Part shown: positions 6,969 through 55,400 of the stretch, in pieces
How the letters are laid out: each line of letters starts with the position of its first letter
Position numbering within the stretch: the first letter of the stretch is position 1
From: Pomphorhynchus laevis
Lineage: Eukaryota; Acanthocephala; Palaeacanthocephala; Echinorhynchida; Pomphorhynchidae
Length of the DNA stretch: 64,000 nucleotides
NCBI GenBank assembly: GCA_012934845.2
Contig: WNNJ02001520.1
Coordinates: 1-64,000 of the forward strand
Direction: 5' to 3'
Notes under the pieces: generated by a model
What the model was told of the DNA's origin: nothing
The model's input: only the letters and a program-made list of their open reading frames with translations
Database searches by the model: none
Translations under genes and position numbers: made by a program

Positions 6969-7119
6969 ATATTTATATTTATTTGATGGTTTAATTTTTG
7001 CTAGATAGGCGTTATAATTATTATAACATATATATGTATATCTTTTTCCGAATATAAGATTAATTAATTTTACTAACGCTTCTTTTATATCTACTAAATC
7101 TAGATTAGTATAAAACGTA

Positions 7120-7677
7120 CTAAAATCGTGTATTTATATTTTGAAAATTTATTCTTTTTGTCTGTTCTAAAAATTCTTTTGTAGAATTAATACTGAAATA
7201 GTGTTTTATACCAGTATTAATTTCGATTACCTTGCAATATTTTTTAAAGTGTGCTTTAATTACTTTAAGTATTTGATTCATATAGACAGAAAGTGGTTTT
7301 AATGTACATTTAAACGCACTATATATGAACCTTGGTTTTATTGGATTTTTATGTAATTTTGGATTCCAATATAATATAGGTATAGTTTTATTATCTGATT
7401 CAACCTTTATACCCTTTTTATCCATTATAGAACAGTGACTTGTAATAATTGTTTCTAAACTCAACTCACTACGTTCATATGTTGGATTTACAGTTAAGTC
7501 ATTAGAATTAACCTCTTTCACTAGTATATCATAATAAAGCTTTTTGCATATGAAGACAAAGTTATTACTAGCTTTGTCAATAGCTGTTATTATATAGTTA
7601 TTCTTTAATTTAGTAAGTTCTTTATACATATCTTTATTAATTTTATCTTTCCTTTTATAATTGTTTGTTATTTTCAT
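7120..7677 (-). CDS. PLE reverse transcriptase, fingers (fragment)
   Basis: Contains IITAIDKASNNFVFICKK, corresponding to the DKG-x-x-VV motif of PLE RTs, and YWNPKLHKNPIKPRFIYSAF, corresponding to the PK-x-HK-x-P-x-RP motif. The frame ends just before motif A (FYTNLDL, read in another frame at about 7,115-7,090), so a frameshift lies near 7,120. Confidence 0.8.
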   Translation of the reverse strand: MKITNNYKRKDKINKDMYKELTKLKNNYIITAIDKASNNFVFICKKLYYDILVKEVNSNDLTVNPTYERSELSLETIITSHCSIMDKKGIKVESDNKTIPILYWNPKLHKNPIKPRFIYSAFKCTLKPLSVYMNQILKVIKAHFKKYCKVIEINTGIKHYFSINSTKEFLEQTKRINFQNINTRF

Positions 7678-7823
7678 TTTATTTTTAATTTTATCAAATA
7701 TATAATCTTTCCAAATTTTTATCTTAGATATATTCGAGCTTTCACTATTAATCAGCTTACTAAAGTAATCATTTAAGTTATTATATAACGAATTGTAAAT
7801 TTTATTTTTGTCATTGTTATTAT

Positions 7824-8384
7824 TTAATCTATATACCCTTTTGATAGCAGATTTCTTAATTCACAATTTTCAATTAATTCTAGATTATGGGTACATATAT
7901 GTTCATTTATTTTATCAAAACTAAGACTTTTACAATCGCATTCTGTTTCCATTATGTTTCTAATATTATCGTTACATATTGATTTTAATTCTTTATTATA
8001 ATTACAAATTTTTCGTCCTAATGGTGGTAGGAGTTTATACCTTATTTTAGGAATATATTTACTTAAATCTGACCCTATTATTTCTTTACTTTTAGAATTA
8101 TTTAAAAGTACGGCTATATTTATGTTATCTATACATTTATTAATGAAGTTTATGGTTAATGTATATTTTCTATTGTTATTATTAACATTTATTGTACGAT
8201 TATAGTATTTTGTATTACAATAACTGTCTATTATACAACTTAGCCTATCATAGTCGTTAATTAATTTTTGATTTATTGAACATATGATATCTTTAGAAAA
8301 ACTTCTTATATTTACATAAAGATCTTTTAGCTTATTATCACTTAAAAGTTGTTTTAATATTTCTAATTGTTCATTTATATACAT
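7824..8384 (-). CDS. PLE N-terminal RT extension (fragment)
   Basis: A 186-residue frame with the patterns LLPPLGRKICNYNKEL and CDCKSLSFDKINEHICTHNL followed by LRNLLSKG. These match the conserved region just upstream of the RT in PLE-type proteins (C-x-C, then H, then LR-x-LL-x-KG). It is broken from the RT frame downstream (7677-7120) by stops. Confidence 0.75.
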   Translation of the reverse strand: MYINEQLEILKQLLSDNKLKDLYVNIRSFSKDIICSINQKLINDYDRLSCIIDSYCNTKYYNRTINVNNNNRKYTLTINFINKCIDNINIAVLLNNSKSKEIIGSDLSKYIPKIRYKLLPPLGRKICNYNKELKSICNDNIRNIMETECDCKSLSFDKINEHICTHNLELIENCELRNLLSKGYID

Positions 8385-8555
8385 ATCTTTTTTAATATTT
8401 TTAACTCTATTTTTCTTATTCCTTTTATCACCATGACTTCTTGGTTTGCGTTTAACCGGATTATTATAATATAGTAGTATATTATAATACTACTATATTA
8501 TAATATAGTAGTATTATACTACTTTTGCCAATTCCTTGTACCACGTAATTCAATC

Positions 8556-9011
8556 CTAATGGGTACATGGAATTAAGCGTTTTAATCCAAAAATCTTCTT
8601 TTCTAATAGTTTTTGATTTAATATTGATATGTTTTCTTCGATAATATGTTCTAAAATAAATAATTTACAGTTTTTAATATCATGTCCTATTAATCTCATA
8701 TGTTTATGAAATATAGTTTGACTATTATGCTGTATATTATATATGTGTTGCCTAAACCTAGTTTTTAACATTTGATATGTTTTTCCTATATATTGCAATC
8801 CACATGTACATTGTATAAGATACACTACACCTGCGGTATTGCAGTTACAATTATTATTAATATTTAATGAAAAACATTTGTTTGTCGTATTATTTACAAT
8901 ACAATTATTATTTATAACATCACAAACTATAAAAAATTTTCTGTTACATTTAAAAGATCTAAAATTGAAATCATTAGTACTTACGTATTTTTCCAATATT
9001 GTTGAGTACAT
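8556..9011 (-). CDS. GIY-YIG endonuclease domain of PLE (fragment)
   Basis: A 151-residue frame. Residues about 58-75 read GVVYLIQCTCGLQYIGKT, the GIY-YIG signature, followed by Arg and His (TRFRQH) at the expected spacing of the catalytic module. A Cys cluster precedes it (CNCN), as is usual for PLE nucleases. The nuclease nicks target DNA for target-primed reverse transcription. It lies upstream of the RT in the same orientation. The upstream start is unclear because the ORF may originally have been one long polyprotein. Confidence 0.85.
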   Translation of the reverse strand: MYSTILEKYVSTNDFNFRSFKCNRKFFIVCDVINNNCIVNNTTNKCFSLNINNNCNCNTAGVVYLIQCTCGLQYIGKTYQMLKTRFRQHIYNIQHNSQTIFHKHMRLIGHDIKNCKLFILEHIIEENISILNQKLLEKKIFGLKRLIPCTH

Positions 9012-9059
9012 GTAACTTTTAAGTCATAATTTTTAGCGTTGCTTTTTCGGTGTCGCCAC

Positions 9060-13400: not shown

Positions 13401-16400
13401 TATATAACATGCTCCATTGTATAGAAGGATCTTTTGAATTTGATTCACTTAAAAAATATTAGTCATTAATATTACTTCCGCAGACTATAAAATCATCATC
13501 TACATAACGGAACCAATCAACTACAAAAGAGAAATCCTTCACACATGTTATTTTCTAAATACATCAAATATATCTCTGCTAATATTTGTGCACTTGGATT
13601 ACTAATGGCTAGTCCATTAATCTGGCTTCACATATCAGATGCAAATGAAAAGTTTAATCTTTTCTTAATAGTTGATACTGATCCATTATTGATAAATAAT
13701 TATTGAAGCTGGATCAAAGGAAGGACGAAATAATAATTGTAATCATTGTAATTTTCTGGAAATGCTAACAGTACTTAGCGAAATATCAAAAATAATTTCG
13801 TCCTTCCTTTAATCCAGCTCTAATAATTATTTAGTTTAATCTTCGTTACATCATATTAACAAATTAGTTCAATCTTCTTTATCAAGAGTTTAATCTACAT
13901 GACTGTTAGTAACGAAAATATTATTAGTGATATCAATAGTAGCTAACAATAGAATATATGTAAATAAAGAGTTAGCATCTGCAGTGAAAATTTTAATGTG
14001 TTTAAAATGTCTATTTTTAATTAAGTTAGAGAAGTGAGGGCCATATTTAGTACCAATAATGCGATTCATAATTTTGATAATTTCATTAACTCTAATCATA
14101 GAGCAAAAAAAGAGGATCGAAACTGCAACGACGGTTATTTTGATATCAAAAAAATTATTAAATAATGACTCAGTTGTTGCTAAATCAGATAAAGGTAGTA
14201 AATTAGTTGTAATGGACAATGATGAGTATATATCATTGGGTAAAGACTTTCCACTATATTAAATAGTGTAAAATTTATAAAACTGATTAAGGATCCTACT
14301 ATTAATCGTCAAAATTAGGTTAATAAATTTCTCAATACATTATGATCTGACAAAAAATAAAGGATAATTATAAAATGACATACATTGCAAAGAATAAAAA
14401 GGCCCGGTTTCTTATATTTATTACCTAAAATTCATAAATATACTCACTGAGCACGTTCTATTGTTGCATCATACTCTACGTTTTTAATTACAATTTCACA
14501 ATTTCGTTTATTTAATATTATTTTTCTACTAATTTTCATCTATCCTTTAAAATTCTTGTATTTGCTTCATTTTCTTTGTTTTTGTTATGCATTACTAATA
14601 TATTGGAATTTTCCTTAATAATGATATTTTTGTTATATTTTTAATTTGTTTTTTTTATCTATATTCCTTGTTACAAATTCTGAGTATTTTGTATAAATGA
14701 CAAAATTGATGTTTTTGTCTTTAAAATAAACTGTTTATAATTTTCCTTAAGATGATAGCAGAAACTATTGTCATCTATATAAAAGATTTTAAGTAAAAAA
14801 CATTAGAGTAAGCTATCATATAGTAGATGGATCAGCCTGAAGATCTATCTACTGCCTGCGAACTGGCTTCCTCTAAAGTCAGCAATCAGGAGAACATGAT
14901 ACTGTAAAGTAATAACGGCATTTGGAATGTCGATATAAACGTTCGTTTCTTCTTGATTTGATGAATACCCGTAATAAAGTAAGCTATCATTTAGTAGATG
15001 GATCAGCCTGAAGATCTATCTACTGCCTGCGAACTGGCTTCCTCTAAAGTCAGCAATCAGGAGAACATGATACTGTAAAGTAATAAAACGGCATTTGGAA
15101 TGTCGATATAAACGTTCGTTTCTTCTTGATTTGATGAATACCCGTAATAAAGTAAGCTATCATTTAGTAGATGGATCAGCCTGAAGATCTATCTACTGCC
15201 TGCGAACTGGCTTCCTCTAAAGTCAGCAATCAGGAGAACATGATACTGTAAAGTAATAAACGGCATTTGGAATGTCGATATAAACGTTCGTTTCTTCTTG
15301 ATTTGATGAATACCCGTAATAAAGTAAGCTATCATATAGTAGATGGATCAGCCTGAAGATCTATCTACTGCCTGGCTTCCTCTAAAGTCAGCAATCAGGA
15401 GAACATGATACTGTAAAGATATAAAACGGCATTTGGAATGTCGATATAAACGTTCGTTTCTTCTTAATTTGATGAATACCCGTAATTGATTTGTACTTTT
15501 TCTGTAATATCGGAATAAATATAAATTATAAAATATAAATCATTAGCCCTTTGTTCGTTTTAAGCATTATAGAATCAATCACAAATGTTTATCAAATGTC
15601 TTTATTTTTGTGGTTGTATGTTTCACTTTTAACGCGATTAAGCCTCACACTTAAAGATTTATATCAATCGCTTTCAGCTAGAACATTTCATGAGCTGCAG
15701 TTGAACATTTGCTAACATTTTCAAATTTGCTGATCTGTAAAATTCTTACCTAACGAAATGTTACTATTCGAGACTGCATATCGCTTAACGATCTCATCGT
15801 GTATATGACAGGTGTATACGCCATCAATAATACTAGAAACTGCAGGATTGTTCACAGGAATTATTAAATCTTAATTAGAAATAGACCTTTAAATTAGCGT
15901 TTTTAAAAGACATTTAATATAGCAGCAAATAATTTAATATATTTAATAAAAAATTAAATCGACAGGTTGTTATGCCAGTGTATATAATTAGATATGTGTT
16001 TACCTAGAGGAAGTAATAAATTGATAAATTGCTTTTTTATTTCTTTAAAATCTACGTTTCTATCTTATTTTCTCTGTAACGTTGTCAGCTTCAGTTGATT
16101 TTATGCATCTGCGTGTAGGTTATTAAGAAACTAACTTAGGGAACACCCAGTCCGTCCTATTTATTGCACTTTGCGTTCTTTATATTCTCCTAAATAAATA
16201 TCTTTTGTTGTACAATTGCTATTCCCGTTGATATGTATTGTAATCGCGTTTTGGTACTCTTTTGTAACTTTCGGTTGTTCGTAAACACTTGCAAGCTTTG
16301 CATCTGGGAAGTTTACATTTTATACACTTATTTATTTCTTATTGATTGAATTTATTATTTTAGATCGTACAAGATACGGTCGTATTGCATTGCTCGACCT

Positions 16401-19400
16401 GAAATATACATATAGATCTTTTCTTCAATAGAGAATTTTAGGCATATGTTTAGTCCAATGTGGCATGTTATTACCATATAACTTCCATTGCTTAATTTAG
16501 TTTTTGCTGATAACCCGGTAGATCGTGGTGACTTCCTAAAATTGCTAATCTGAGTGCATATCATACGATCTTTTCAACTTTACTAAAGATCATTAATTTT
16601 ATTAGATCATTTTCAAAACTGTACATTCAACTGCAGATAAGTCGAATGCGAAGGGACTCGTTGAATATTACAACACGTTTTATGTGTTGTAATATATTCC
16701 ATGCATATATTACTATATTGTATTTGATTTCTTGTGTTGGCTAGTAAATAAACTTTTATCTTGATAAGAGACTATTATGCCGAGGAAATTTACAGTGTTG
16801 CCATAGTCATCTGTAAATGTAAATTTTAATGAGCCAAATAAATTTAGGTCTTTAAGTAGTTGCTTAAGAAAATTTTCTTCGTGTTCTTAGATTATGATTA
16901 TATCATCTAGATGTCTTGTCTACATTTTTGACTGTAACATTTTTGATGCTAATAATGTTATCTCATAGTCATCCATATAGATATTTGCAGACGTAGGTGC
17001 GAATAGTGTTCCCATCCTTGTGACCTCATTCTGGCTAAGTCATTTTATATGAATACATTGTTCTCTAGTATAAGCGAGGATGATTCTGATAAATTATATT
17101 TTCTCGTCTTTTCAATCAAATTTCCAAAGAAATTGTTCTACAGCAGATATACTAACTGTATGTGCGATGTTGGTATAAAGAGATGTGACGTCTACCTTTG
17201 TCCGTAATGCCCACGGATATTAATAGAAATTTTTAATGATAAATATTCTATATATATCATAAATCTAATTCAAATTGGAGCTAGATAGTAATATTTAAAT
17301 TCATTTGGTGTTAATAAATTGGCAGGTAATGTTGAACTAATCATGTTCCTCATAATGTTTCATCGATAATAATTTCTTGTAATTGGTTGGCAGTTTCATC
17401 ATGGTAAAGTTTGAAATCCAAAAACAGGAAGACACGTTAAAAAATGAGATGCACTAAATTTACAAAGACTACATAACACAAAAGCTACGACATAGGATGC
17501 GCCAATCAACAAATCTGCACAACAAAGTTGGAATAATTTGCAGCTCAGGTGATTTAAAATGTATATGTTCTATTGTCAGCGATAATAATTTTTAATAATA
17601 AACAGTTAAAACTATTCAATATAGGATTTTACTACTATTGCCTAATAGACAAGAAATAAAATATAATAAAAAATCACCCGCATATGTGTGCAAATTAAAT
17701 CAAATCAAAACATGATCAAAAATTTACACAAATAGTGATTTAAATTTTTTATAGAAACTTACAAGCGTGTATTTGATTTATTGTCTGAGACCGTCTATCG
17801 TTTTCATTACATTTATCGCCTTTATTTACTTGGCTGAAAAATAAAATATGGTAAAAGATTTATATGGTAAAAGCTTTATCAAATAGTTAATTATAAATAA
17901 CACAATAGCATACCAAAAGCAATTTTGCAAGTTATGGCTTATCACACCTTATTAAATAGTCGATAATTTAGATATTCAATATTCAATATTAAATAGTCGA
18001 TAATAAAATCAAGCAGAAAATAGTAAAATATATAAATCAACACAATAATATAAAGAATAAATTTAAACTCTTAAGTGGCAAATTTTATGGATGGATAATA
18101 AATAATATACTTTGTATTAGAATAAGATACTAGATAGTTTTATCAGAGGAAATACATCATTAGCATGTATTTGGCCCCGCTGCTATGTTGAGTCGAGGAA
18201 CAGGGGCCGAAACCTGATAACATAGCAGCTCCTCATGATGACCTCTCATCCTTATTCTGATACAACGTCTGTTATTTTTAGTCAATTCATAACAATTGAC
18301 TTTGATTTTAAATTTCAATTTTTTATTTTAACTTGATATAAATTATAAAAAAAAACAATATTTGTTTTATTATTTAATTATTTTTGATTTAGCATTATTA
18401 TGTTTTGTTTATTTTATAATTATATTAAATACGTAGATTCAGTTAGCTGATTTGATTTATACTAACGAGTAAGTTATATCTTAGTAAAATCTGAAAGGCA
18501 AATTCAAAGAAGATAATATAGGCTCTGATGTAATTTATAATATAAATGTGATAAGTCCAGAACCGTAAATGTGAAATTTATAAATCTGTCGTGGAAATAC
18601 AAAAAACGAACCTTTTTGGCGATTTGATAGAGGAACAGTAGCCACGTCGCCTTATTGCTTGATGTTTACTAGAATGACTTTCTTTACTTGTTACCCATTG
18701 GCAAAATGGATCTGATTCGCAGGTCAGACAAGTCATGTATATTTCGCAGTTAGAAATTGATAATTGAAATATAGTGTTTACTCCACCGACGTACAGAAAA
18801 GACTCCTGTTTTGTTTGAGGATCATAGAAATAAAAGCAGTTATAATATTGACTTGAACAAATAATATTTTATGCAATTTGTGTTGCAAAAATTGGTGAAG
18901 CACGTAAAGTGCTTATGTCAAATTATGGTAATAACTAAGATCAGCTTCAAAAATTGAATGGCATATAATGCTTTCAATAAAAGAAAACAAATAACGAGGG
19001 AACTTAGACTTTTAATAAATAAAAATCTTTAATGAAAGTCCCTGAAAGTGCTCTATTCAAACCTGAATAGAAGTCCCTGAAAGTGTTCTATTGAAAGTGT
19101 TCTACGAACGAAATTACTCCTTTTCAAAAATGTTTATATATTAGAATCTTCACAAATATAATTTCAAATCGGTTAAAATGAAATTCATATCTTTGAGATA
19201 AGTGATATCAGAGAGGTTAAGCCCGGATTGCGGAATAAAAAGTATATGCTTACTTTAATATGTATTTTCTATTATAGTTTCTATTTAGATATTGATATTT
19301 TATGAAACATATATTGATACATTTCATCTTTATTAGTTAGCCTGAAAGTGTTCTATTGAAAGTGTTCTACGAACGAAATTACTCCTTTTCAAAAATGTTT

Positions 19401-22400
19401 ATATATTAGAATCTTCACAAATATAATTTCAAATCGGTTAAAATGAAATTCATATCTTTGAGATAAGTGATATCAGAGAGGTTAAGCCCGGATTGCGGAA
19501 TAAAAAGTATATGCTTACTTTAATATGTATTTTCTATTATAGTTTCTATTTAGATATTGATATTTTATGAAACATATATTGATACATTTCATCTTTATTA
19601 GTTAGGATTAAGATAATGTGACGTTTATAAAAAATGATTTACAAGAACAAAGAATCATTTAAGTTTACCAGAGTTCTGATACTAAAAACTTTCTATAATT
19701 TAGATTCTTTAAAACACAGATTTTTATTAACAGATTAATAGAGATTCTGTATTTTTGGTTTTCCTACTTCTCTACATTTTTTATTTTTAGTTATAGATTG
19801 TCCTGATGAGGGTCACAAAGAATAAATTTACAATCCCTGCTTATTGTGTGGTCAAATTAATAAGATAATATACCCCAATTAATATTCAAAATAATAAGAT
19901 AATATAGCAGTACAATTAATATTACCATTTCGATAAACCAATTATCAATTTTGCTCTCAAAGTCAGTTAATAATTTTATAATAAACTAAATATAGGTTCT
20001 ATGATTTTAATGTAGAAAAGTTAACAGCTTTTGATTTTATAATATTTCTTCTTTCGAGTATTTATTAGATGTTGTATTAAATAGTGAACATTTTTAAAAT
20101 ACTAATTTCTTACTAGATTATCCTCTGTGTCCAAAGAAACATTGCACGCTAACTTATTTTTCTAGTCATGAGAATTTTTCATTATATTGGCCTTAATTGT
20201 TATTGCTAATGGTTTTACAATATACGACACTTAAACCTGATTCCAACCCACAATTAAATTATCAACAGTTGCATTTTATATTTAAAATATTTAACTAATT
20301 CTTAATTAAATCTAAATTTCAATATTTTTGAATATTTGTTCGAAAAATCGATTGAAACTGTAGTCAGGAGCCAAAACAGGCTACGATTGATTTTAAATCC
20401 ATGTGTGCTGCTAAATAACTGGACTTCGATCATCAGCTCCATCAGTCTAATGTATCACTCCGAGACGATCCTAACCACCCAGCAGTCATCGTCAGTCGGA
20501 TAAAGTGGTTAGGGTACGTTTCGACTGCTTTTGTGATAACTATAAAGACACCAGCAATTCCTCACGATGCTATACGAAGCTCAGGTGCAGAAGCGTTTTT
20601 ACTGGCTTGTTGCGTGTGTGGACCTTCTAGTTATTCTTTATATAAGGCACAAATGCGTATCCGTTGATTACGAGGACACTGAATTTCTCACAGGATTCCT
20701 GAAGGAATGCGTCATTTATAAATTGTTATTGCGAAAAATCGCTTGAAACTGTGGTCCAGGAGCCAAAGCTGGCTACGATTGATTTTTAATCCAATTTGCT
20801 GCTAAATAACTGGACTTCGATCATCAGCTCCATCAGTCTAATGTATCACTCCGAGACGATCCTAACCAACCAGCAGTCATCGTCAGTCGGATGAAGTGGT
20901 TAGGGTACGTTTCGACTGCTTTTGTGATAACTATAAAGACACCAGCAATTCTTCACGATGCTATACGAAGCTCAGGTGCAGAAGCGTTTTTACTGGCTTG
21001 TTGCGTGTGTGGACCTTCTAGTTATTCTTTATATAAGGCACAAATGCGTATCCGTTGATTACGAGGACACTGAATTTCTCACAGGATTCCTGAAGGAATG
21101 CGTCATTTTATAAATTGTTATTGCGAAAAATCGCTTGAAACTGTGGTCCAGGAGCCAAAGCTGGCTACGATTGATTTTTAATCCATATTTGCTGCTAAAT
21201 AACTGGACTTCGATGATCATAACTAATGCGTCATAGTTTCGTATGTGGTCAGGAGAAGATCGATTGAAATCGGGATAATTTGCTGGTAAATATCCTTCTG
21301 ATGGATATATATAGTTTCTTATTTATCGATTCGATCCTTTAATGAATGCTTATTTATCTATTGAATTTACTAGGTCACACAAGATGACTTTCGCATCGAA
21401 AACCAGCTACAGAATCCTTCCTTCATGATATCCAATTCCATACACCATGACTACAAACGGCATGACTGTCACATTCGTTTTCATTTCGCCCGCCTTTTGT
21501 CACATATTAGTAGCCCCGCGTTCGTCAGAATGCTGACTACAAACTCTTTACCTTTGGAAATTTGATCCATCCAGGATTCGACCTGTCGCTCTTCGTACTT
21601 GGCTTGCGCTCTTGACTGCTAGGCTACGAATCCAGAATTATCAGATTTCACACAGTATATGAAACCTTCCATCATGATCTCCAGAAACTGCATTGTCCGA
21701 GATGCTCTCTGGCATGCTTATCATAGATTGTTTCGTATGGGATCCCTAGGATCGATTGAAATTGGGACTGGTGATTCTTTGATGGTAGCTTATTTATCTA
21801 TTGAACAGTTGCTAGGTCACACAACGTGACTTTGGCATAAAAACCAGATCATTTCTTCATTAGGAAGGGTGTGTGGAATTGGATATCAAGAAGGAAGGAT
21901 TCTGTATATATATGTATAAAAGTGATGCTTTTGTTAAGTTTTGAATTGTAAGGTATTGTAGCATTGTTTAACTGACGAAGACAGAAAAAGTTGAAACGTT
22001 TTAAAAATAGTGCTCAGTTGTTTGGATTTTGTCTTTTTGGTGATTTTTGAGAACATTGATTTTATATATAAGTATCGCTCTATGGCAGATCCCATCGAAA
22101 ACCGATCAAGCTTTCCTCCTATATATACTTTAATGAAGTGTAGAAAACAGGCAATGACACTTATAATTTATTTAAACGTTTCGTGTTTTATAGGGACTTC
22201 GTCAGTATATTGTAAGTACTTAATGATCAAGAATATTTAAGCTAGTAATGTATATTGTAAGTAGTTACTGATCAAGAATATTTAAGAAATATATAGCTAT
22301 TGATCAAGATATCGTTTAGTTTCCGTGATTTATTTCGAATAAATAAAGAAAAATTGAATTGCGTAAATGTCTTTTCAAATTCATGTAAATATAGCGTTTC

Positions 22401-25400
22401 GCTTCAGGTGATTACTCACTGCAGTTTCAATTCGCATGATATGTCTGTATTTGACACAGAAGAATTTTATATCCGAAATTTCACTTTAAAATATTTATGG
22501 TAGATGATACTCATGGTTTAAATTTATACTATATAGATCTGTCTTTAATGACCTTTCCAGAAGCTTTCAAGTTTTTTCGCTTCCTCTCATTTTATACGCT
22601 TTCCAATTTTACAACATATAATTTGTGTCGGGTTATCAACGATATGTCGACGTGCACCATCCCTTTTTATATTTCGTTTTACATCACTGGGTATGTTAGT
22701 TGCTCTTTTGCGATAGGATCTTCCTGTCTCACCTACTTATTGTCTTTGCAATCTTCACATGTTATTACATATATTGCATTAGTAGTCTACAATTGAATTT
22801 TCTTCTTATATAATACTTGGCTCCTGTTGCAGTATCGTCTAAAGCTTTAGAGCTTATCATATCTTCACAACACTTACAACGCTTATCTACTCATTTTGAT
22901 GACGAGATTGAATCTTGCAACGATGAAATGTATAAGCATGATATGGATGAAAATGAGATCAAAGAGATATATATTCTATTTAAAATAGTACAAACTCAGA
23001 ATATATTTACATTAAATGGCAAATTTTGGAAACAGGCGGATGGAATAGCCATGAGTACATCCGTTGCACCACATTTTGCCAACATTTTTTTGGTAGATTT
23101 GGAAACTTGTATTATATATGGAAGTAAGTTGAAACTGTTTTGAAAGGGTCGCTTCATTGATGACATCCTAATAATATGAACACACTGTCAAACATAACTA
23201 CAGCATTTTATATCTTATCTCAATTCAACTGGAAATATAACATTTATTCAGGGGAGGATATAAACATATAGTTTGCATTTCTTAACGTATGTTTATCCCG
23301 AATTAAAAATAGCTGGTAAGGCCAAATATATAGAAAGCCTGGACAAGTCGCAAATCATGTATATAAAAAAAGTGCACAAAGCCCCTTATTACGGTGTATC
23401 TTTCAAGATATTCCGTAATATCCTCGTCACTTAAGAAATATCCGTATGTAATAATATCACAAAGAAAGAACAACAATCAGCACAATGCGTAGATAAACAA
23501 TGTAAGTGTTTGAAGATATAATAGGTTCTAAAACTTTAGACAATATCGCAAAAGGAGACATATTATACAAGAGAACATTCAATGAAGACTAATAATGCAA
23601 TATATGTTATGACATGTGAAGATTGTAAAAAGCAATACGTAGGTGCGACAAGAAGACCATATCAAAAAATCAGCTAAAAACAAACGCAGTAATGTAAAAT
23701 TAAACAAAGGGATGGATTGTGCAAGTAAAAATATGGTTGATAATCCAATATATAAACTTGAAGAACTTTTGGATAGATCAATTAATGATTGATCTATATA
23801 GTATACATTTAAACCATATAAACCATGGTTATATATAATACGTAAAATTATGTGATCAACCGAAAAATATTTTTTTCGGTTAATCACATTATATATAATT
23901 GCCCACATTGTAGTAAAAAACAAAATAGCTTATTTGTATGATTAAATTCCAGCAGTATTAAATCAAGTTTATAAGCTTACATAACAGATTAATAATCTGT
24001 GTGTTAATAATAATCTTTCTGTATATTAATTAACAAAGTAATACAGAATATTAATCTGTACAGATTACTAATCTTTCTGTATATTACTTTTATTAACATA
24101 AATGTAATAGACAGAAATGTATATCTACACCACTGGAGTAGTCAGCCGAGTGAATATTACGTTGAATCGTGATACAGCCGTCCTGAGTACTAATCTGATC
24201 AGCACCAGTGTACCAAGTAAGCAGATAATAAGGGTCGAAACGTGAAATGTAGGTCTGGGTCAGCAGCTGATGAGACCCACCCAGACTGATTAGTAGCGTC
24301 CTGCTGTATCAAGAATAGGAACAATACCTGTGAGGATAATGTTATGCCACAATCAGAAGAATAACATATTATACTTGAAAAGTTAAAAATGTTTTTGGGT
24401 TTTTTAAATAAATTTAAATGCAGATCAATTTCACTTATTAAATCAGGATTAAACTTTAAATCATGAATTATTGCGTTTTATTACTTGCAAGTGGCGAGTT
24501 TTGGAAATTAATTTTTCACTGTTAATTCGGAGAATGATATATTCTCCGAATTAATTCATGATTTAAAGTTTAATCCTGATTTAATAAGTGAATTTGATCT
24601 GCATTTAAATTTATTTAAAAAACCCAAAAACATTTTTAATTTTTCAAGTATAATATGTTATTCTTCTGATTGTGGCACAATATTATCCTCACAGGTATTG
24701 TTCCTATACTTGATACAGCAGGTCGCTACTAATCAGCCCGTGTTGGTCTAATCAGCTGTTGACCCGGACATAGATTTCACGTTTCGACCCTTAAATGCCG
24801 CAATAACTTGTTGTGCTTTATTCAATTCGTTCCCTTTTTATTTTTCAATAATCGTACTTTTATCTAATCGTATATTTTCTTTGTTTCTTATGTTTTTATT
24901 GTTTAATATTCTGAAGCTTTTGTTTGATGAGTACATTTTGTATATTTTTAAACTAAAATTGTATGACTTAAATTTTATATTTACAATTGCATAACTTAAA
25001 TTTTATATTTACAATTTTACGAAACTAACAAAATATTGTGATAATTTCTCAATTTCGTTCATTTCGTTCAACTGCAACATTTACTCGCAAGTATATATCA
25101 AATAAAATATTCAAAAAAATTGCAAAATCTGATTGGTACAATGTTTTGAAAGCATGTAACAAAGATACTCTCTAAGGGAAACAAGATTAAATATCCTTAA
25201 AACGTATTTAGTTGTCGGCATTATGTACGACTGACTATTTTATTCATGTATACATTATTCGCATATGTGTAAACAAAATTAACTATGGCTTTGGCGAAAT
25301 TTACCACACTGTACACTTAATGAGATTTGACTATATAGTAAAGGTCGAGAAGATATTTTTATATAAGTGTACCTTAAACTATCTCTATAATAACGAATAA

Positions 25401-43400: not shown

Positions 43401-46400
43401 CCAATTTCGGGCACATACCGTTCGTCCTTTGAATTTTAGGCATTCAGTTCGTCGAAGCAGAGTGGGTCTAATACTGGGCTTTATGTGTTTCTAAAACAAT
43501 GTGAATTTGGTTGAATAATTAAACCTGATAAAAATTCAGAGCTACAATTTTATAGCTTTATATTCAACATGTAACTAAACGACCAAAATCGGTCCTTTGT
43601 AAAGACGAATAGATTACAAGTTTAGCTGTTGCAATTATAACTTTTTAGTAAAAAAACAATTAGTTATTCATGCAGGTTTAGCTGTTCCAATTATAAAAAT
43701 GTGACAAATTTAAATTATTTTATTTTTAAAATTGAAAAATATAAATTAAATCTATTAATTTGTTAATTTTGCAATAAAATTTAATTTTAATTCCGCTGCG
43801 ACACTTATCATGTGTACTGGATAAGTTAGTTCAATTGAAGACTGATCAATATCGTATAAATTAATATCCATATATTATATTTCTTGCCGAATCACAATTA
43901 ACAGCGTAATAGAATTCGTGTATATATAAAAATACGGATGGTTTATTTAATCGTCTTATACACATTCGACGAAATTAAATGCGATAATTATATATCCATG
44001 ACCAAATTTCGGAACGTGATAACCTTTCAAAAACCGAATTTGGATGATAAGCAATAAAATAAAACAAATTAAAACACATCAGAATGACGTTTTTCTATTT
44101 AAAAAGTAAATAAATCAAACACACTAAATTGAATAAATTCTTATATTTACAGATATTTATTTGAAAGTTTACATACAAAACTGTTTTGGCGGTTCTCAAT
44201 CAGGGTTTACATTCCCAGAGAATGGATAAAATCTCTATGGATGAAACAATCAAACCGATAATTTTAAAGCTTCATAAAAACTGTAAAATAGTCCAATGAA
44301 ATAGATTTCAATTTTAAGTTTCACTAATCAGCCAAAGATTAACTCAGACAATTTATGCTAATGATAGCAGTTGGCTATCAAAAATTCGATATTTAAATAA
44401 AATAATTCTTTAAACTTCATTTTCTTCTCTAATAAATAATACTAACGCTTAAGTTGATATTTTAAAATAGGTGCAACTATGAATCGAAATATAATGAACA
44501 ATTTATGGAACTCACATTCCATAAATAATCATTAAAAAATGATTATTTATGAAAATGGTAAAAAAATAATCATTTAAGCTCCTCTTATGTAAGGCATTGA
44601 CAACAAATTAATGATCGTAGTGATCAACAAGTGCTTAATTAAAGAAGATGGTTAATTCCATCGTTAGAAAGCGCACAATGTTTTCATACTTATAAACTTC
44701 TGAAAAGCGCATAAGTATGCAAAACTGAAAACATTGTTATTTATTTATGAGAACACAATTTATTTATAAGTATTTAGAATAAATGGGCATGCGTATCGAC
44801 TTTTGAATATTGCGAGAATAATTCGGTTCTATTTCCTGGTTTAATGAAGATATATAGAATGCTGCATGATGTTTATGCATCCTTGTGGGGGAAACAGCGA
44901 TAACTATGACTCAATATATATTGAGTTATTAATTGTGTAATTTGGTATATAAGCCAAATATAAACCAGCATTTCGGCGACAAGGAATCAGCAGAAGCAGT
45001 AAAAGAACCGAAACACGAAATGTAGGCGTGGGCTCACTGCTGATGAGGTCCACCCACGCTGATTGTAGTGTACAGTGATGCTGATAGGATTCAAACAACC
45101 ACACGAGGATAATATCAAACCGACCAGTTAAGAATAATGGCTCGTGTATGCGATATTCACAATAGTAAAAAGACAGCTTACGGTTTACTGTACAGTGAAC
45201 ATTTCGTATAAGAACAGAATAAAAAATCGGTGTGTGGTGGATTCGAATTGCGAATATTAGTTACCGCCCACACCAAATATAGAACACATTAATTGTGTAA
45301 TTTGGTATATAAGCCAAATATAAACCAGCATTTCGGCGACAAGGAATCAGCAGAAGCAGTAAAAGGACCGAAACACGAAATGTAGGCGTGGGCTCACTGC
45401 TGATGAGGTCCACCCACGCTGATTGTAGTGTACAGTGATGCTGATAGGATTCAAACAACCACACGAGGATAATATCAAACCGACCAGTTAAGAATAATGG
45501 CTCGTGTATGCAATATTCACAATAGTAAAAAGACAGCTTACGGTTTACTGTCCAGTGAAAATTTCGTATGAGAACGGAATAAAAAAATCGGTGTGTGGTG
45601 GATTCGAATTGCGAATATTAGTTACCGCCCACACCAAATATAGAACACATTAATTGTGTAATTTGGTATATAAGCCAAATATAAACCAGCATTTCGGCGA
45701 CAAGGAATCAGCAGAAGCAGTTAAAGGACCGAAACACGAAATGTAGGCGTGGGCTCACTGCTGATGAGGTTTACCCACGCTGATTGTAGTGTGCAGTGAT
45801 GCTGATAGGATTCAAACAACCACACGAGGATAATATCAAACCGATCAGTTAAGAATAATGGATCGTGTATGCGATATTCACAATAGTAAAAAGACAGCTT
45901 ACGGTTTACTGTACAGTGAACATTTCGTATAAGAACAGAATAAAAAATCGGTGTGTGGTGGATTCGAATTGCGAATATTAGTTACCGCCCACACCAAATA
46001 TAGAACACATTAATTGTGTAATTTGGTATATAAACCAAATATAAACCAGCATTTCGGCGACAAGGAATCAGCAGAAGCAGTTAAAGGACCGAAACACGAA
46101 ATGTAGGCGTGGGCTCACTGCTGATGAGGTCCACCCACGCTGATTGTAGTGTACAGTGATGCTGATAGGATTCAAACAACCACACGAGGATAATATCAAA
46201 CCGACCAGTTAAGAATAATGGATCGTGTATGCAATATTCACAATATTGAGTTATGATAACTCATAACTATATATATATATCAATGCAACATTAGTCGACT
46301 AGTCGATCCAAGCTACGCTGATAACTTTAACACTCAATGGAGAAAATGAAAATGTCAAAATGATTGCAGTTGTACTATGGTGAGGCTTTTAGTCGGTACA

Positions 46401-49400
46401 CGCGACTACAACGCGCGTACCGGTATCATGGACGAACGTTACTACAACGAGGCAATTACAACTAAAATAAACACGATTCAACAACTCCATGTCAACATAT
46501 CCCCGATTGAAAATATATAATATCATCTATACACTGTTGTATCCAAGGGTGCATTGTCAGTTGTAGAAGATAGAATACGACCATAATCCGCACAATTCGG
46601 AACAATTTACATGATATTTAAAGTTTACAAGATTCAACGTCCTCACGTTGTAGACCAATTATTAGCTAAAGACGGACACAAATCGAGCATTTGTCCCGTT
46701 ATATACACAAGCTTCTAAAATCACTTTTACGAGATATCGTTACTTATATTGAAAACAGTATAAAGCTAGTTTATCGCATAGAAACAGAAGGTCAAAGTTG
46801 GCCACGGGAAGGTATCCTTGGCGCGGCTGATGTGCAAAGTCTATATACAAACATTCCTAAGGAGGAACCTCTATCTGCTATTAAACACACATTAGAAAAA
46901 ACAACATAAATAAATTAAAACGATCATTTATTGTTGACTCAGAAAGGATGATATTAAATAATAATATGTTGAAATTTAACAGTGAGTGGTATTAGCGTAC
47001 CTACGGTACGGCATTGGGTACCCTATGGCGCCTGTTCATGCAAATATTTACATGAACGCTCTCGAATCAGTGTGGATTGCTAAGACATCGATAAAATCAA
47101 TATGCTCTGTGAGATATATTGATGATATATTTTTTCTATGGCCCGGAAATATAAAGTCTACTATCTTTTCAGGAACTAATAAACAAAGATGGACCAATTT
47201 AATTGACATTTGACGTAGGTGACAGTGCAAATTTTATTGACCTTACGATCTTTATCCAAAACATGCTTATGGAATTTAAACATCGATAATTTGAACTAAG
47301 AATGCTTATGGAATTTGGACTGCCCAACTTATGCCTACACTGGTGGGTCCAAAGACGAGATTTGACTTATCGCAACTAAAGTCGTAGTAACGTCATAACA
47401 TTGTATTTTGCAGCTAGATTCTTCCAGAATTTTCTTATAAATATTCACATATGTACAATGTATTTTTGTTGTAGTGTGTTTATGATAAAGGACAGTAGTT
47501 TGAAACATGTAAAAATAAAAAGTGCAGATTATTCCTGTTTTCAATTATTATTGCGATATATATAACGAATCTCAAAATACAGATACGAGAAGGCAGTTCT
47601 CAAAATGCTAAATGTAATATGTACACTATGCATTAGCAAATCTTATATATAAGATATGCTATACAGTGTATTCGTTATAGACTATTTATATACACTACAA
47701 TCACACCTGCCCTGGGACACCCAATGGTGTACTCATAAATAAATCACTATGTTTTCCTCGTGAGGAGGCATAAACAGCAGGCAGCATTCTATATATCCTC
47801 ATCAGACCAAGAAATATAACTAAATTATTCTCGCAATGTTCAAAGTCGCTACGTATGCCCAGTCATCATATGTATGACGACAAACTTCAACAACGGTAGA
47901 CGCATTTTGCTCTTACGAAGCTCATCAGTACGGTGACTTTAATAATCATCCATAGGCACCTTAACACACGCTTAAACAGTGTTTAATCTGTGTGTCCATA
48001 TGCACTGATTAAACAGTGCATATATATTCTCCTTTTCCATAGCAAGAGCAGCGACCATTGAATTATATTAAAACAAGATAAATATCGAAGACTTTTTAAA
48101 AATAAAAACAGTAACGATGTACACGAAAACACCACCCACCTGAGAATGCCGGTCGCTAATGTCAAGAAGTGAAAGTCGAAATATTAAATCCCTGAAAAAT
48201 AAAAAACAATTTTATTGGTATTTAGAAAATAACGGCGATATAAAATTACCTTCCCCCTACAAATAAATATTTATCAGTTACCAACAATTTCTGGAAATCA
48301 CCATGCTCGTACTCTAACTTAGAGTAATCTAAACTAGTAAATACTTTACTAACAAAAACCTCATATATGAAAACATTTAGAAAGATATTTATTAAAGATA
48401 GGTTAAGATGCTACATAAAAACTGGAAATTTTTGATTACACTGCACGTTGTTTTAATTATATCTATAAGTCAAGAGCAGTACGCTACATTTCAGAATTGG
48501 TGGACCTCATCAGCTAATGATCCAATACTTTCGTTTCACGTTTCAATATTTTAATGTTGGCTGACGATCATTCGACTAGCTTGATTTATTAACAATTAGA
48601 TTAAATGAAAGACTTTCGTATTATATTTTGCAAATTTAATTGAAATCATTTATAGTTTGAAATTAAATCAGTGATTTCAAAAATTTCAATTATAACAATG
48701 ATTAACTTATATTAATTTAAGTTAATTTTAAATTAACTTAAAATTAAAAAGTAAACTGTAGATGAATAGTTTGATAATAATTAATTTCAAACACAGGTAA
48801 GTGTTTAATTTGAAGATAGAACCTTCTCTTACAAACGCTGATTTAATTTAAAATCATAAATAATTTTAATTAATTTAGCAAAATATATAATAAAAGAATG
48901 TAGCATTTCTTATAATATATAATATTATAATAATATAAAAAAATATTAATAAATAATATCGTATAATAAATACTATATAATATCATTTCTTATATAAGAA
49001 TAAATAAGAAATGTATATTTAATATATATTAAATGCGTATAATCAGTTAGCCGGTTTGACTCATTCAATCTAATTGTCATTAAATCAGACGAGCCGAGTA
49101 ATCGTCAGTCAACATTTAAGACGCGAAACGTGAAACACTAGTATCGAATTAGTAGCTGATAAGCTTTATCAATACTGAAATGTGGCGTACTGCTATTGGC
49201 TAATAGATATGGCAGTGTCATCAAATAATTCAGCACCAAACAATTCAGGAATAAATCAGAAATAATAATTGATCCTCAAACTATACATATATATTAGGTT
49301 CAATAAAAACCCAGGTTTTACGTGCTATGGTTGAGATAAGCATCATTAAAAATTCTTTCGTGTATCAAGGCAAACTTCTCACTGTATGGTTTAACCATCA

Positions 49401-52400
49401 TTTGTATAAGACGACATCTCGTACTTTAACTGCTATAATTTAAGCTAAGCATTCTCAACCAAGCATTAAATATAGCAAGGAAATAGAGCTGCTGCTAATA
49501 AGGTTGACGACCATGCCTCAACAGATTTACACATAAACTAAATAACCTTTAAAAGCACTTGCATAAAGCAGCAATTTCCAATTGTGTTTCAGAGAGTACA
49601 TGAAACTGTAAACTTGTCGATTTCAAAAATGCTCAATCACTTGGAAGCCAAAATTTTTATGTTAAGATCGATAGCGAAAGAATAAATTTTGGTAAACTTT
49701 CAGATATAAGCAAAATCCACGACGAGTCATTAAAAATGTTGTTAAGATAGTAAATTTGATTACATATGTTTTGTATTATATGTAAAGTAGCACAAAAAGA
49801 AATTACTCTAGTGTGTGTATCTTTCATTATCAATTCAAAGTAAAAGAATATGTGCATTCGGGTATTTTCATTTTTACGAGAGCACTTGTGATAATAAACA
49901 ATACGCGATATCGTTTATTGTTCACAAATAATAAGATAAATGTTACGATGCTCATATATATTCGATTATAAATTTTGGTAAAAATATAAACTGGAAGTTG
50001 AAAGAAGAATAGTTAAATATTTACGTTTCGGCTTGTCCCTTCTTCTCGAACAAATTCAACAAAAACTTCCAAGTTTCCGCATATATATGACGCATTCCTT
50101 CAGGAATCCTGTGAGATTCAGTATCCTCGTAATCAACGGATACGCATTTGTGCTTTATATAAAGAATAACTAGAAAGACCACACACGCAACAAGCCAGTA
50201 AAAACGCTTCTGCACCTGAGCTTCGTATAGCATCGTGAGGAATTGCTGGTGTCTTTATAGTTATCACAAAAGCAGTCGAAACGTACCCTAACCACTTCAT
50301 CCGACTGACGATGACTGCTGGGTGGTTAGGATCGTCTCGGAGTGATACATTAGACTGATGGAGCTGATGATCGAAGTCCAGTTATTTAGCAGCAAATTTG
50401 GATTAAAAATCAATCGTAGCCAGCTTTGGCTCCTGGACCACAGTTTCAAGCGATTTTTCGCAATAACAATTTATAAAATGACGCATTCCTTCAGGAATCC
50501 TGTGAGAAATTCAGTGTCCTCGTAATCAACGGATACGCATTTGTGCCTTATATAAAGAATAACTAGAAGGTCCACACACGCAACAAGCCAGTAAAAACGC
50601 TTCTGCACCTGAGTTTCGTATAGCATCGTGAGGAATTGCTGGTGTCTTTATAGTTATCACAAAAGCAGTCGAAACGTACCCTAACCACTTCATCCGACTG
50701 ACGATGACTGCTGGGTGGTTAGGATCGTCTCGGAGTGATACATTAGACTGATGGAGCTGATGATCGAAGTCTAGTTATTTAGCAGCAAATTTGGATTAAA
50801 AATCAATCGTAGCCAGCTTTGGCTCCTGGACCACAGTTTCAAGCGATTTTTCGCATATATATATATATATATAAGTAAGTGTTCGAATCGAGCATATTCT
50901 TCAGTCTGCAAACTCTCGTCACTCCTAGACGGTCATGTGATAGCCGGCAGCCATCGTCAGTAAGATGAATTATCACACGCCGTTTCGGCTGCCTCTGTGA
51001 CATTGTGAAAATGCATTTCCGACATCTAGCTTAAATTGTTGGTGGCGTTAGCTCTTAAATCCAACAATTTGCAATGCGGACCATCATAAACAACCAGAGG
51101 ATCAAACTTTCGGATGCTTGACTGTAAGAAACCGAGATTGAGTGGATCAATTCTTTCTATATAATCATAAGAGTTTCGTTTGAATCGGTATTGCTCGAGA
51201 GTGATGAGAGTTTGCAGACTGAAGAATATGCTCGATTCGAACACTTACTTAAATATACGGAAAGAATTGCTATTCGCAATCTCGAGCAATACCGATTCAA
51301 ACGAAACTCTTATGATTATATAGAAAGAATTGATCCACTCAATCTCGGTTTCTTACAGTCAAGCATCCGAAAGTTTGATCCTCTGGTTGTTTATGATAGT
51401 CTGCATTGCAAATTGTTGGATTTAAGAGCTAACGCCACCAACAATTTAAGCTAGATGTCGGAAATGCATTTTCACAATGTCACAGAGGCAGCCGAAACGG
51501 CGTGTGATAGTTCATCTTACTGACGATGGCTGCCGGCTATCACATGACCGTCTAGGAGTGACGAGAGTTTGCAGACTGAAGAATATGCTCGATTCGAACA
51601 CTTACTTAAATATACGGAAAGAATTGCTATTCGCAATCTCGAGCAATACCGATTCAAACGAAACTCTTATGATTATATAGAAAGAATTGATCCACTCAAT
51701 CTCGGTTTCTTACAGTCAAGCATCCGAAAGTTTGATCCTCTGGTTGTTTATGATGGTCTGCATTGCAAATTGTTGGATTTAAGAGCTAACGCCACCAACA
51801 ATTTAAGCTGGATGTCGGAAATGCATTTTCACAATGTCACAGAGGCAGCCGAAACGGCGTGTGATAGTTCATCTTACTGACGATGGCTGCCGGCTTTCAC
51901 ATGACCGTCTAGGAGTGACGAGAGTTTGCAGACTGAAGAATATGCTCGATTCGAACACTTACTTAAATATACGGAAAGAATTGCTATTCGCAATCTCGAG
52001 CAATACCGATTCAAACGAAACTCTTATGATTATATATATAATGCGGAGGGAAATCAATAGTAAGGCACAATGTGATCAGAGACATTTTCGCCAAATTAAC
52101 TTCAGAGGTGTGTTCATCAACTACAACTGAGCCACTGCTTTCTCCCGTTGATCCAACTATTCAATTCGATTCTTCTTCCACTACACTAGATCGCAATGCA
52201 CGTCTTGACGTCTTGTGTTCGGGGTTGTTTGGCGTCCCGTCTGAGCGGTCCTACCTGGACATTTCTGTATTCAATACACATGCTCGTTCCTATGCCACAA
52301 TGACTCCACGATCAGCGTTCAGTTATAACGAGAATCGAAAAAAGGCTAAGTACTCCGAACGGATATCCAAGATCGAAAGAGCAGCTTTTATACCAGTTAT

Positions 52401-55400
52401 TTTGTCAATACAAGGTGGATTAGGGGATGAGGCAGAACAGTTGGTAAAACGCTTAGCAAAAGACGTAGCGGTGAGAAGAGAGTGCCGTTACAGTGACGTG
52501 ATTAGCCGATTCAGACGTTCCATTGGAATAGCTCTCGTGCGGGCTAGCTCATGGTGTCTCAGATAAATTTTTTTCATTGTTACTTTTTTTTCATTGTCAG
52601 TTTATATATATATATAACCGGAATATTCATGATTGATCGTTATCTCTTCAATCATAGAAAGTATTTTTGTTGGGACCAAATAAGAAATCTGCTACCATTT
52701 GTCCTTACCATAATCGTTTTTGCTACTTTGCGATGGATATCCGATACATGTTGGCTAATTATTACATAATATTTAGTGTCGTCTACTCCTCCGTGTTCAT
52801 CATAACATTATTAACAAATGTGTATGAGTTAGATGGTATATTTTGTTTAGAGGTTTGCAACACAGTCTTTTTGCATGCTGATTTGATATCTGCTTTGTGA
52901 TTATTGAGTATCCGGCTGATTGTTGGCTTAGTTTCACCAAGTACATGGCAATGATCACAGTGACCCATATATATGACGTTTGTTGTGGCACTAATGTTAT
53001 ATCCACTAACTTTGTACATAAGGAATGTAGCTGCACTGCAGAAACCACCATTTTAAATTGTATATGTACAGTTATTACATGTAGACCTATTGAGTCTTTT
53101 ACACATTCCGTCGACTTTATCTAGGGTGTTGTTCTCATCTGTCATTTTTGAGCATATCACATATTTCTTAATTTTAATGTTAGAATTATCGTAGATCCTC
53201 GATTTGGTATCATTGAACTTGAACTATCCGCACACATCTTTGTATGATTTTTGAATGTCTAAATAAAGATTTCGTATACTATTATGATATAACAAACTAC
53301 AAGATTTTGATATTTCTTCAGCCGGTTTGCTAGTTAACCACTGACTTTTCGGCTTAGACCGTAATTTGGCAAATTGTTTATATATCCATACTGGATGATA
53401 TCTACTGATTATTAATAATGTTTGAATCCTCTTTATTTCATTTTTGAAGACACAATGAGTGCTGTAAATTCTACGAATTCTAAGGCTTTCATTAAATATA
53501 AAAGCACGTTTTACAGCACTGATCTGTGGACTTCTGCAGTGCATATATCGCCATCGAGCTTTGCTTCCTAACCAGCGTTGTCTGCCATGAATTTGTCTTA
53601 TCACTAAAATAGATCTTTGTATCCAGAAATTCAGCTTTGTCTCCAAATTGAAATATGAAATCTAATAGACCCCATCTATTGAGATTTTCAAGAAATGTTT
53701 TAAGTTTATAAGATCCATGTGTTCAAACAGAAAGGAAACCATCTATATAACATCTTTATATATTTCCTCATTGGCCAGTTTCATATTATCATAGTGTGGT
53801 TCTTTCAATTCTATCAGCATCACTGTACACTACAATATGCGTCGGTGAACCTCATCAGTAGTGATCCCACGTCTACATTTAGTGTTTGGGTCCTGTTACT
53901 GCTTCTGCTGAACTCCTTGTCGCCGAAATGCTGGTTTATATTTGGCTTATATACCAAATTACACAATTTATGTGTTCTATATATTTGGTGTGGGCGGTAA
54001 CTATTATTCGCAATTCGAATCCACCACTATTGTATTAATAGTTGAAATTTTGATGAATTCATTCTGCACTTTGCTTTAACCCTAAATAGGGTTCCTGTAA
54101 CCCTATTACAATCAGAAATATATATTATATATTATATATAACAATTAGAAACAATTACGGTTCAACAATTTTTATAAGCTAAGAAAGATATTTATATATT
54201 ATGAATATAAATATAGGAAAAATTTAAATAAAAAAATTATATTACCAAGCACAAACAAAAATGTCTTGCTTAAAGATATGCTTACAAGCAGAATACTGAG
54301 TGTGCGCATAGGAAATAGCGACAGGTATTGAAGAAATAACAATATTGACGGAGAGACTCGTAACCACCGCTGTACAGTACGATAATAGCTGTACAAACAG
54401 AATCTGCATTGTTTAAATAGTAACTGATAAGACGATCATCCAAACAATCATCTGTTTACTGAAACATGACAAATACACTATAAAGCAAATGTGATGTTTA
54501 AAATGCATTTTATACAAAAACAAATATTGGTATGCCTTGATCATCAGCATTTGAACATCTATTTTTTATCCAAGTAATATCAGTAAAACAAATATTGCGA
54601 AAAGATTTTTTTGTATGGAACTCGCATATTTATTTTATTTTTTAATGTAACTATTATTTTTACAAAAAATATACACAAATATGGGTTCTCGCAAATGGGC
54701 CCATGAATGTTTCAGTCATCAATTCAGTCACGTTCCATTTCCGAGTAAACGCTATTATCGTCAGACACCATCTTGTTTTTCGAAGACCTGGGACTCCTCA
54801 TGCATGCTGATGCAGCACGTGCTATGGCAAAGCCAATTCGCCTCTTCAAATGGCTGAGATTGTCTGAATAAGACTGACGATTATGCTGAGCCTGTTTGAC
54901 CGCGACAAGCCGGAGGAGTTGCATGGCCGCTTTGCCGGTTTTTTTCACATATTTATTATTAATAATAAAGATTTTCTTAATAATTCATATTTATTCAACT
55001 ACTGAGAGTATATTGTTATATATTGAGCAATGCTACTCAATATAGTGAGCTCAATATTGACAAATTGTTCAATTTATTGATCTATTCTATATATTTAAAT
55101 ATTTCATAGTGTAATTGAATAATTTATGGGTATATTGAATAATTCGCTATGCGTACGGAAGTGTGTATAGATAGACACAGTAGCGTAAGCCGAAACAGAT
55201 TTGTTACTTGCAGTATTACGGGCTCTGAGCTTTGCAATAAGTGTCGTTGGATGACCGTCTATATATCTCCATCTACATTCAGCAGTGATGATAAGTATAA
55301 CCAACTGATCAATCGTAATAACAATGGAACGGCAGTAATTCTGGTTGCCCGTGTCAACTACATTTGGTGTTTAAGACAATGAAATATGAGAAACCCGCTA

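Follow-up and report, generated by a model that had tools for sequence, protein, structure and literature searches.

In the first 64 kb of contig WNNJ02001520.1 of the acanthocephalan Pomphorhynchus laevis (assembly GCA_012934845.2; positions 1 to 64,000, hereafter the window; 29.4% GC), repeats of about 360-400 nucleotides (nt) belonging to four families, A to D, each carry a compact hammerhead motif of 71-75 nt. The best explanation, to which we assign a probability of roughly 85% from the sequence comparisons, is that these motifs are hammerhead ribozymes in a non-circular strand order, with one predicted self-cleaving ribozyme in each retrozyme-like unit of about 360-400 nt. In the naming of Eckert et al. 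2023 (PMC10085705), in which the core blocks are called S, C and G, the order is G-C-S: GAAA, CUGANGA and then the cleavage strand. That the motif is a real structured RNA is strongly supported by the base pairing kept among diverged copies, and, as far as this can be judged from sequence, it qualifies as a type-GCS hammerhead. In the copies compared, three core strands are present, stems I and II covary (as does stem III in families C, D and E), and a fourth stem, IV, is nested with stem III and holds CUGANGA in its loop.

Hammerhead cores in the window

Stems I-III occur together with stem IV in ten copies of families A-D. The hammerhead core, that is CUGANGA, GAAA and a NUH triplet joined by stems I, II and III, is found in all four families, in A and B with one extra nt. 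One core of each family is given here strand by strand, where 5' and 3' after a stem number denote its two strands.

24232-24306, plus strand: family C core of type GCS; II3' 24232-24236, GAAA 24237-24240, III3' 24240-24242, IV5' 24253-24259, I3' 24261-24266, CTGATGA 24267-24273, II5' 24274-24278, IV3' 24280-24286, III5' 24297-24299, predicted cleavage after C24300, I5' 24301-24306
45365-45438, plus strand: family D core in the 360-nt array 44928-46245; II3' 45365-45369, GAAA 45370-45373, III3' 45373-45376, IV5' 45386-45392, I3' 45394-45399, CTGATGA 45400-45406, II5' 45407-45411, IV3' 45413-45419, III5' 45428-45431, predicted cleavage after A45432, I5' 45433-45438
50271-50341, plus strand: family A core in the 393-nt array 50087-50855; II3' 50272-50277, GAAA 50278-50281, III3' 50281-50283, IV5' 50287-50295, I3' 50300-50304, CTGACGA 50305-50311, extra T 50312, II5' 50313-50318, IV3' 50322-50330, III5' 50333-50335, predicted cleavage after C50336, I5' 50337-50341
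51487-51557, plus strand: family B core in the 357-nt array 51199-52036; II3' 51487-51493, GAAA 51494-51497, III3' 51497-51500, IV5' 51503-51510, I3' 51515-51519, CTGACGA 51520-51526, extra T 51527, II5' 51528-51534, IV3' 51537-51544, III5' 51548-51551, predicted cleavage after C51552, I5' 51553-51557

A preliminary description of this DNA had placed the strands of these motifs, and all of them were found again at the same places and on the same strands, C24300 and C50336 included. It had also held that every core base matches the hammerhead, which is incorrect for A and B, where an extra T stands between CTGACGA and stem II.

The families are not fully separate. Cores A and B are 67% identical and cores C and D 73%, with the remainder of the units at 51-52% (z 1.7 and 2.8 against shuffles), and because of these core identities two superfamilies, A/B and C/D, are recognized rather than four independent families. 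Among the four comparisons of an A/B core with a C/D core, z exceeds 2 only for A with C (3.6). The earlier statement that the families share no obvious overall sequence therefore goes too far.

Block order and chance

When the window was scanned with all six block orders permitted (stem II of at least 4, stem III of at least 3 and stem I of at least 4 base pairs (bp)), 13 matches at 10 places were obtained, three of the matches being alternative registers, and every one had the order G-C-S. In 200 dinucleotide shuffles, five G-C-S matches were found in total (0.025 per shuffled window). With stems I, II and III summing to at least 14 bp, 10 matches remained in the window, all G-C-S, compared with none in this order and seven in other orders in the 200 shuffles. 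The scanner reports canonical orders at canonical hammerheads, for example in viral contigs, which shows that G-C-S is not produced by the scan itself. A match at 56762, which sits in a local simple repeat, was discarded.

At gathering score, no hammerhead family was listed by Rfam for the window; pseudoknots are not represented in Rfam covariance models. The linear order G, C, S is the one that defines type GCS in Eckert 2023, and stems I, II and III cross in the structures used for covariation, which gives the at least two pseudoknots of that type.

Covariation of the stems

The rows compared come from three sources, namely the window, loci that searches returned, and regions chosen by eye for their diversity, with family F (see below) left out. 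They were selected by sequence anchors alone, without any demand for helices, since an initial extraction had demanded stem II and would have been circular. In C/D/E, 88.8% of the 1217 pair cells in 61 distinct rows are standard pairs, compared with 77.4% after shuffling (0 of 500 shuffles as high), and 196 cells are altered on both sides (75.9 in shuffles). In A/B, 93.7% of 1158 pair cells in 58 distinct rows are standard (shuffled 87.5%, again 0 of 500 as high), with 66 cells altered on both sides against 19.2. Sliding one side by 1-3 columns lowers pairing to 27-41% in C/D/E and to 28-45% in A/B. A separate hand-registered count, from which eight off-pattern A/B matches and 12 duplicates had been removed, gave 1102 of 1240 cells in C/D/E (62 rows there, 61 in the anchored count) and 1186 of 1276 cells in 58 A/B rows, with 0 of 1000 shuffles as high.

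Both superfamilies show changes on both sides of a pair in stems I, II and IV, and C/D/E also in stem III, which bears out the covariation between families claimed in the preliminary description. Pairs with such changes in at least nine rows are II2, II3, III3, IV3, IV5, IV6, I2, I4 and I5 in C/D/E, and II2, seven IV pairs and I2 in A/B. At the level of consensus sequences, C and D differ in II2, II3, III3, IV5, IV6, I2, I4 and I5, and E is unlike both in IV3 and IV5; A and B differ in II2, I2 and seven of the eight IV pairs. The number of C/D/E pairs with any both-side change also exceeds that of shuffles (3 of 500 as high). On these alignments, covariation is present in stems I, II and III, with that of stem III resting on III3 of C/D/E; pair III4 of A/B and family F add weaker hints.

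These comparisons bear on an alternative in which one random sequence arose by chance and was amplified as a satellite by common descent. Copies inside each superfamily are indeed related; nevertheless, the shuffles and sliding controls speak against it, and the lineages A, B, C, D, D2 and E retain pairing while their sequences change, so that we regard this explanation as very improbable. The pseudoknotted hammerhead in anti-cyclic block order that had been proposed for the window is instead backed by covariation in 61 and 58 distinct sequences, and by family F.

Family F

Family F was encountered while a Penelope locus was being read (L148/L208, then L210), and not through a ribozyme pattern. 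In the L210 copy, stem III is ACGAC/GTCGT, stem I is TTCTA/TAGAA, and stem II, GGCAACC/GTGTTGCC, forms with a single bulged T. The family resembles B by eye, and compared with B, pairs in stems I, II and III are changed on both sides. In the main genomic form, stem III is extended to ACGACCA/TGGTCGT, as seen by eye among the genome matches. Stem IV is weak in this family. Copies are mostly spaced about 380 nt apart, some 351 nt.

Fold, stem IV and the proposed mechanism

Stems III and IV form one hairpin with an internal loop, and the CUGANGA block is its hairpin loop. In C/D/E the internal loop has 9-10 nt per side, with GAAATGTAG and TGATTAGTAG-like strands kept, GAAATGTAG being part of the search pattern; in A/B the linkers between III and IV are 2-3 nt. 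Nested free-energy folding recovers III and IV in the A-D and D2 cores, and not in E. Stacking sums over four helices are -40 to -44 kcal/mol for A-D and D2 and -26.8 for E, with loop and pseudoknot penalties excluded, and the best nested folds of the cores reach -20 to -27 kcal/mol. In A and B (50271-50341 and 51487-51557), the letters CATC before the CUGANGA block can pair with GATG at its end, and family F carries CATT/GATG-like letters. This pairing in A and B is possibly an off-state, as suggested by the folding models.

In the proposed mechanism, the nested III-IV hairpin would form first, after which its loop would pair 5'-ward with the GAAA strand as stem II and 3'-ward with the cleavage strand as stem I. 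Because stem IV would enclose the CUGANGA block where stems I and II have their outer ends, it would tie these two stems together, taking over the role of the contact between loop I and loop II in ordinary hammerheads. The RNA is predicted to cut itself after the H of the NUH triplet (C24300, A45432, C50336 and C51552), and multimeric array transcripts would thereby be reduced to unit length. Unit-length RNAs may then circularize, and Penelope-type enzymes may copy them back into DNA. By a geometric estimate, stem II, core and stem III together measure about 31-39 Å and stem IV with its linkers can span more, so stem IV could lie beside the II/III stack. For type SGC, the same question about an extra helix beside the stack is posed in PMC10085705.

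The same blocks could also be assembled between units, as a swapped dimer or at array level. One unit would then contribute GAAA together with the cleavage strand through its III-IV hairpin, and another would contribute the CUGANGA loop. Many small hammerheads linked to Penelope elements work as dimers. This precedent, together with the case of an amphibian retrozyme, fits such an arrangement, as do the tandem position of many units and the short III-IV linkers in A and B, which make a straight III-IV helix likely. However, all blocks and stem IV lie inside 71-88 nt in the families read, the 9-10-nt linkers of C/D/E let stem IV fold back easily, and the C copy at 24232 stands outside any tandem array. 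Assembly between units is judged unlikely, though it is the strongest of the alternatives, and folding in cis is favoured.

Alternatively, the motif could be a non-catalytic structured element that resembles a hammerhead, such as a hairpin bound by reverse transcriptase, in which the III-IV hairpin would be the part that is kept. That free-energy folding finds the nested hairpin in the A-D and D2 cores, and that the hairpin is extendable by CATC/GATG in A and B, agrees with this explanation. It does not predict that stems I and II covary with strands lying outside the hairpin, nor that all three catalytic blocks are present, and it is considered quite improbable.

Abundance in the genome and beyond

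The genome (249.4 Mb, 3242 contigs) contains 5,227 exact-pattern matches, a portion of them with imperfect stems: 971 + 841 = 1812 for the C/D/E pattern, 1200 + 932 = 2132 for the A/B pattern and 595 + 688 = 1283 for the F pattern, which was searched within this genome. The reversed C/D/E, A/B and F patterns gave 0 genome matches each. The first 17 bases of core C, with at most two mismatches, gave 2304 + 2074 genome matches against 8 + 10. Canonical type-I hammerheads (RF00163) are present in the same genome with at least 65 matches, at least 62 of them above the cut-off, mostly in tandem units of about 295 nt; such arrays were seen in contigs C219, C1798 and C2913, among others, and at loci L009 and L010.

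The C/D/E pattern had no stem-bearing match in viral contigs (6 loci) or prokaryote genomes (12 loci). The A/B pattern was found at 59 loci of viral contigs, canonical phage-like hammerheads among them, and the sole viral G-C-S match (L166) was rejected, since its blocks belong to a canonical GSC hammerhead.

It could be argued that these are once-active ribozymes, now largely decayed into satellite DNA without a current role. Broken stems in several window copies and in many copies of one A array (L141/L142) are in line with this; on the other hand, many copies are identical and fully paired (the best 40 scored matches of family B are all 100% identical over 101 bases), and open reverse transcriptase frames of Penelope elements, 800-950 amino acids long, exist in the genome. 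Such a general decay is therefore thought improbable, with a standing close to that of the non-catalytic element.

Other copies of the cores in the window are listed here.

46086-46159, plus strand: family D core, identical to the copy at 45365-45438
45005-45078, plus strand: family D core, impaired by a single stem II mismatch
45726-45799, plus strand: family D core, impaired by G-T wobbles in stem II (GGTTT) and by G instead of A at the H position
50664-50734, plus strand: family A core, unit 2 of the array 50087-50855
20459-20529, minus strand: family A core in the array 20341-21219
20850-20920, minus strand: family A core in the array 20341-21219, IV3' with one change
51844-51914, plus strand: family B core in the unit after 51487-51557, IV3' with one change
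50923-50993, minus strand: family B core, inverted head-to-head copy, IV5' with one change
24716-24790, minus strand: family C core, decayed, head-to-head partner of 24232-24306
48474-48549, minus strand: family E core, decayed
53819-53893, minus strand: family D core, decayed
near 49120, plus strand: further decayed copy of C/D/E type

Several observations weigh against type-GCS ribozymes that fold and cleave in cis. Seven A/B pairs have any both-side change and 20 further pair types occur in A/B, neither better than in shuffles (405 and 479 of 500 as high), and the pair types of C/D/E likewise do not exceed shuffles (172 of 500 as high). As the copies are related, the both-side changes trace to few family-level events, mostly between families. 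The anchors fix several core bases as well as the A/B pairs II1 and III1-III3, so the invariance of these positions proves nothing, and the rows are a non-random, hand-picked diverse subset of the listed places and their neighbours. Pair III4 of A/B is paired in 28 of 58 rows (C-G, G-C, T-A and wobbles) and is T-T in 28. Damage is present in many copies, and of the three F copies read, the two in L208 have mismatches in stem I or III. The A/B linkers of just 2-3 nt mean that a fold in cis requires a sharp bend. In nested folding, A and B preferentially lengthen stem IV by CATC/GATG, a pairing in competition with stems I and II; a comparable extension is present in D and D2. In addition, the C/D/E and A/B patterns have no relative beyond this genome in the collections searched, which consist of viral contigs and prokaryote genomes for C/D/E and of viral contigs for A/B and include none that is eukaryotic.

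Retrozyme-like units and their surroundings

The units measure 357, 393, 399, 360 and 370 nt and are tandem and non-coding, within the 150-450 bp of retrozymes. The block order is G-C-S and not canonical type I, and they are therefore classed as retrozyme-like only. A coding role was rejected, as no frame is open all round in the single unit taken from each of families A, B, C, D and D2. A rod-like fold of the unit circles was also considered and is inconsistent, with z-scores of the circular minimum free energy from -0.4 to -3.2.

Two Penelope loci were read. One (L147) has a canonical-order minimal motif, and in the other (L148/L208) copies of F follow on the 3' side of the frame. A sister Penelope frame is present in two contigs, L209, which carries A-type copies, and L210, which carries an F copy. 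At these two loci and two sister-frame contigs, no direct link of ribozyme units to one given Penelope element was established. Spread by Penelope enzymes is possible, with animal retrozymes as the model (PMC7229834, PMC11167929).

The L147 motif (2100-2200; CTGAAGA...GCCCGAAAG) was seen by eye as a minimal hammerhead-like motif between tandem Penelope frames spaced 2793 bp, and Rfam gave no report for it at E of 1 or below. Another repeat in L210, with two copies about 350 nt apart (from about 640 and about 980), shows a type-I-like motif with a GGCTT/AAGCC stem II and an altered CTGATTA core, and a similar motif with CTGATGA was noticed in L040.

Neighbouring copies on opposite strands within 3.5 kb tend to diverge, the left one on the minus and the right one on the plus strand. 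Among the places entered, this was observed in 11 of 11 cases for C/D/E, 2 of 2 for A/B, 4 of 5 for type-I hammerheads, 6 of 7 for Penelope reverse transcriptases and 3 of 6 for family F. The divergence in C/D/E would be consistent with priming at the two ends of a target; since family F diverges in just 3 of 6, head-to-head insertion is no rule for all families.

The window has further features of its own. At 6741-9023 on the minus strand, open frames resemble a Penelope-type element, with what we take to be a GIY-YIG motif upstream of a presumed Penelope-type reverse transcriptase; Pfam gave no match for the four frames of this region. Inverted similar sequence (GGGCATGCGTATCGACTTTGAA-like) at 44786 and about 47860 flanks, by eye, the D array and a reverse transcriptase remnant at 46.4-47.2 kb. 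The stretch 14807-15486 holds four copies of a 173-nt repeat that has strong hairpins, with no hammerhead and no Rfam match at gathering score, and 19076-19605 is a perfect 265-bp tandem duplication. A reverse transcriptase frame in the window has its best named relative in Pomphorhynchus laevis (70% over half of the query), and a protein search with an arrestin-like, host-like frame met only that frame itself.

Relation to known hammerheads

The order had first been taken to be unprecedented. This was wrong, as it is the type GCS of Eckert et al. 2023, of which one bacterial sequence was tested. According to PMC10085705, SGC and CSG ribozymes were demonstrated, the former coming from hairpin-ribozyme contigs in metatranscriptomes and further searches and the latter from two sequences. 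A single GCS sequence, GCS-1 of Caballeronia peredens, showed slow and partial cleavage in vitro (kobs 0.014 per min), had no covariation and was of a relevance called "unclear". This cleavage, observed by others, counts in favour of the type-GCS reading of the present motifs. As far as described there, GCS-1 has the same 5'-3' block order, three stems and at least two pseudoknots. It is a single bacterial sequence, whereas here thousands of animal copies in two superfamilies are found, with covariation and a nested stem IV. Types SGC and CSG share with the present families a non-circular permutation and seem, from the same text, to have an extra helix joining stems I and II; their block orders differ.

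The animal non-LTR (long terminal repeat) retrozymes with type-I hammerheads (Cervera and de la Pena 2020, PMC7229834) resemble these units in their 150-450-bp tandem repeats, low GC, many copies and a hammerhead; they differ in having the canonical type-I order, and canonical arrays are present in this genome too. The literature searched, with most subscription papers and all bioRxiv preprints outside its scope, contained in its available text no type-GCS hammerhead beyond PMC10085705 except citations, nothing on a "permuted hammerhead" and nothing joining acanthocephala with ribozymes. The G-C-S order was already known; what is new, as far as this literature goes, is a GCS set that covaries, is abundant and has stem IV as a nested clamp, situated in retrozyme-like repeats of a genome that also has canonical type-I hammerheads.

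A further likeness is to the minimal hammerheads of Penelope-like elements, which lie in the same sort of genomic neighbourhood. These minimal hammerheads have the canonical order and are not known to have a stem IV.

Significance

One of the six hammerhead orders, GCS, was left without covariation support by Eckert et al. 2023, and the families described here would fill this gap. The matched base changes across families suggest that the G-C-S order is really used in nature. We hold it probable, with slightly more reserve than for the reading of the motifs themselves, that GCS, the sixth and last possible hammerhead block order, is a real and abundant natural ribozyme class, with thousands of copies in one animal genome, two superfamilies and a built-in stem IV clamp that replaces the contact between loop I and loop II. 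The families would show that the strand order of the hammerhead is free in nature and would add a pseudoknotted set of two superfamilies for structure work. They would also suggest that animal retrozymes employ non-canonical hammerheads, which nested covariance models may miss.

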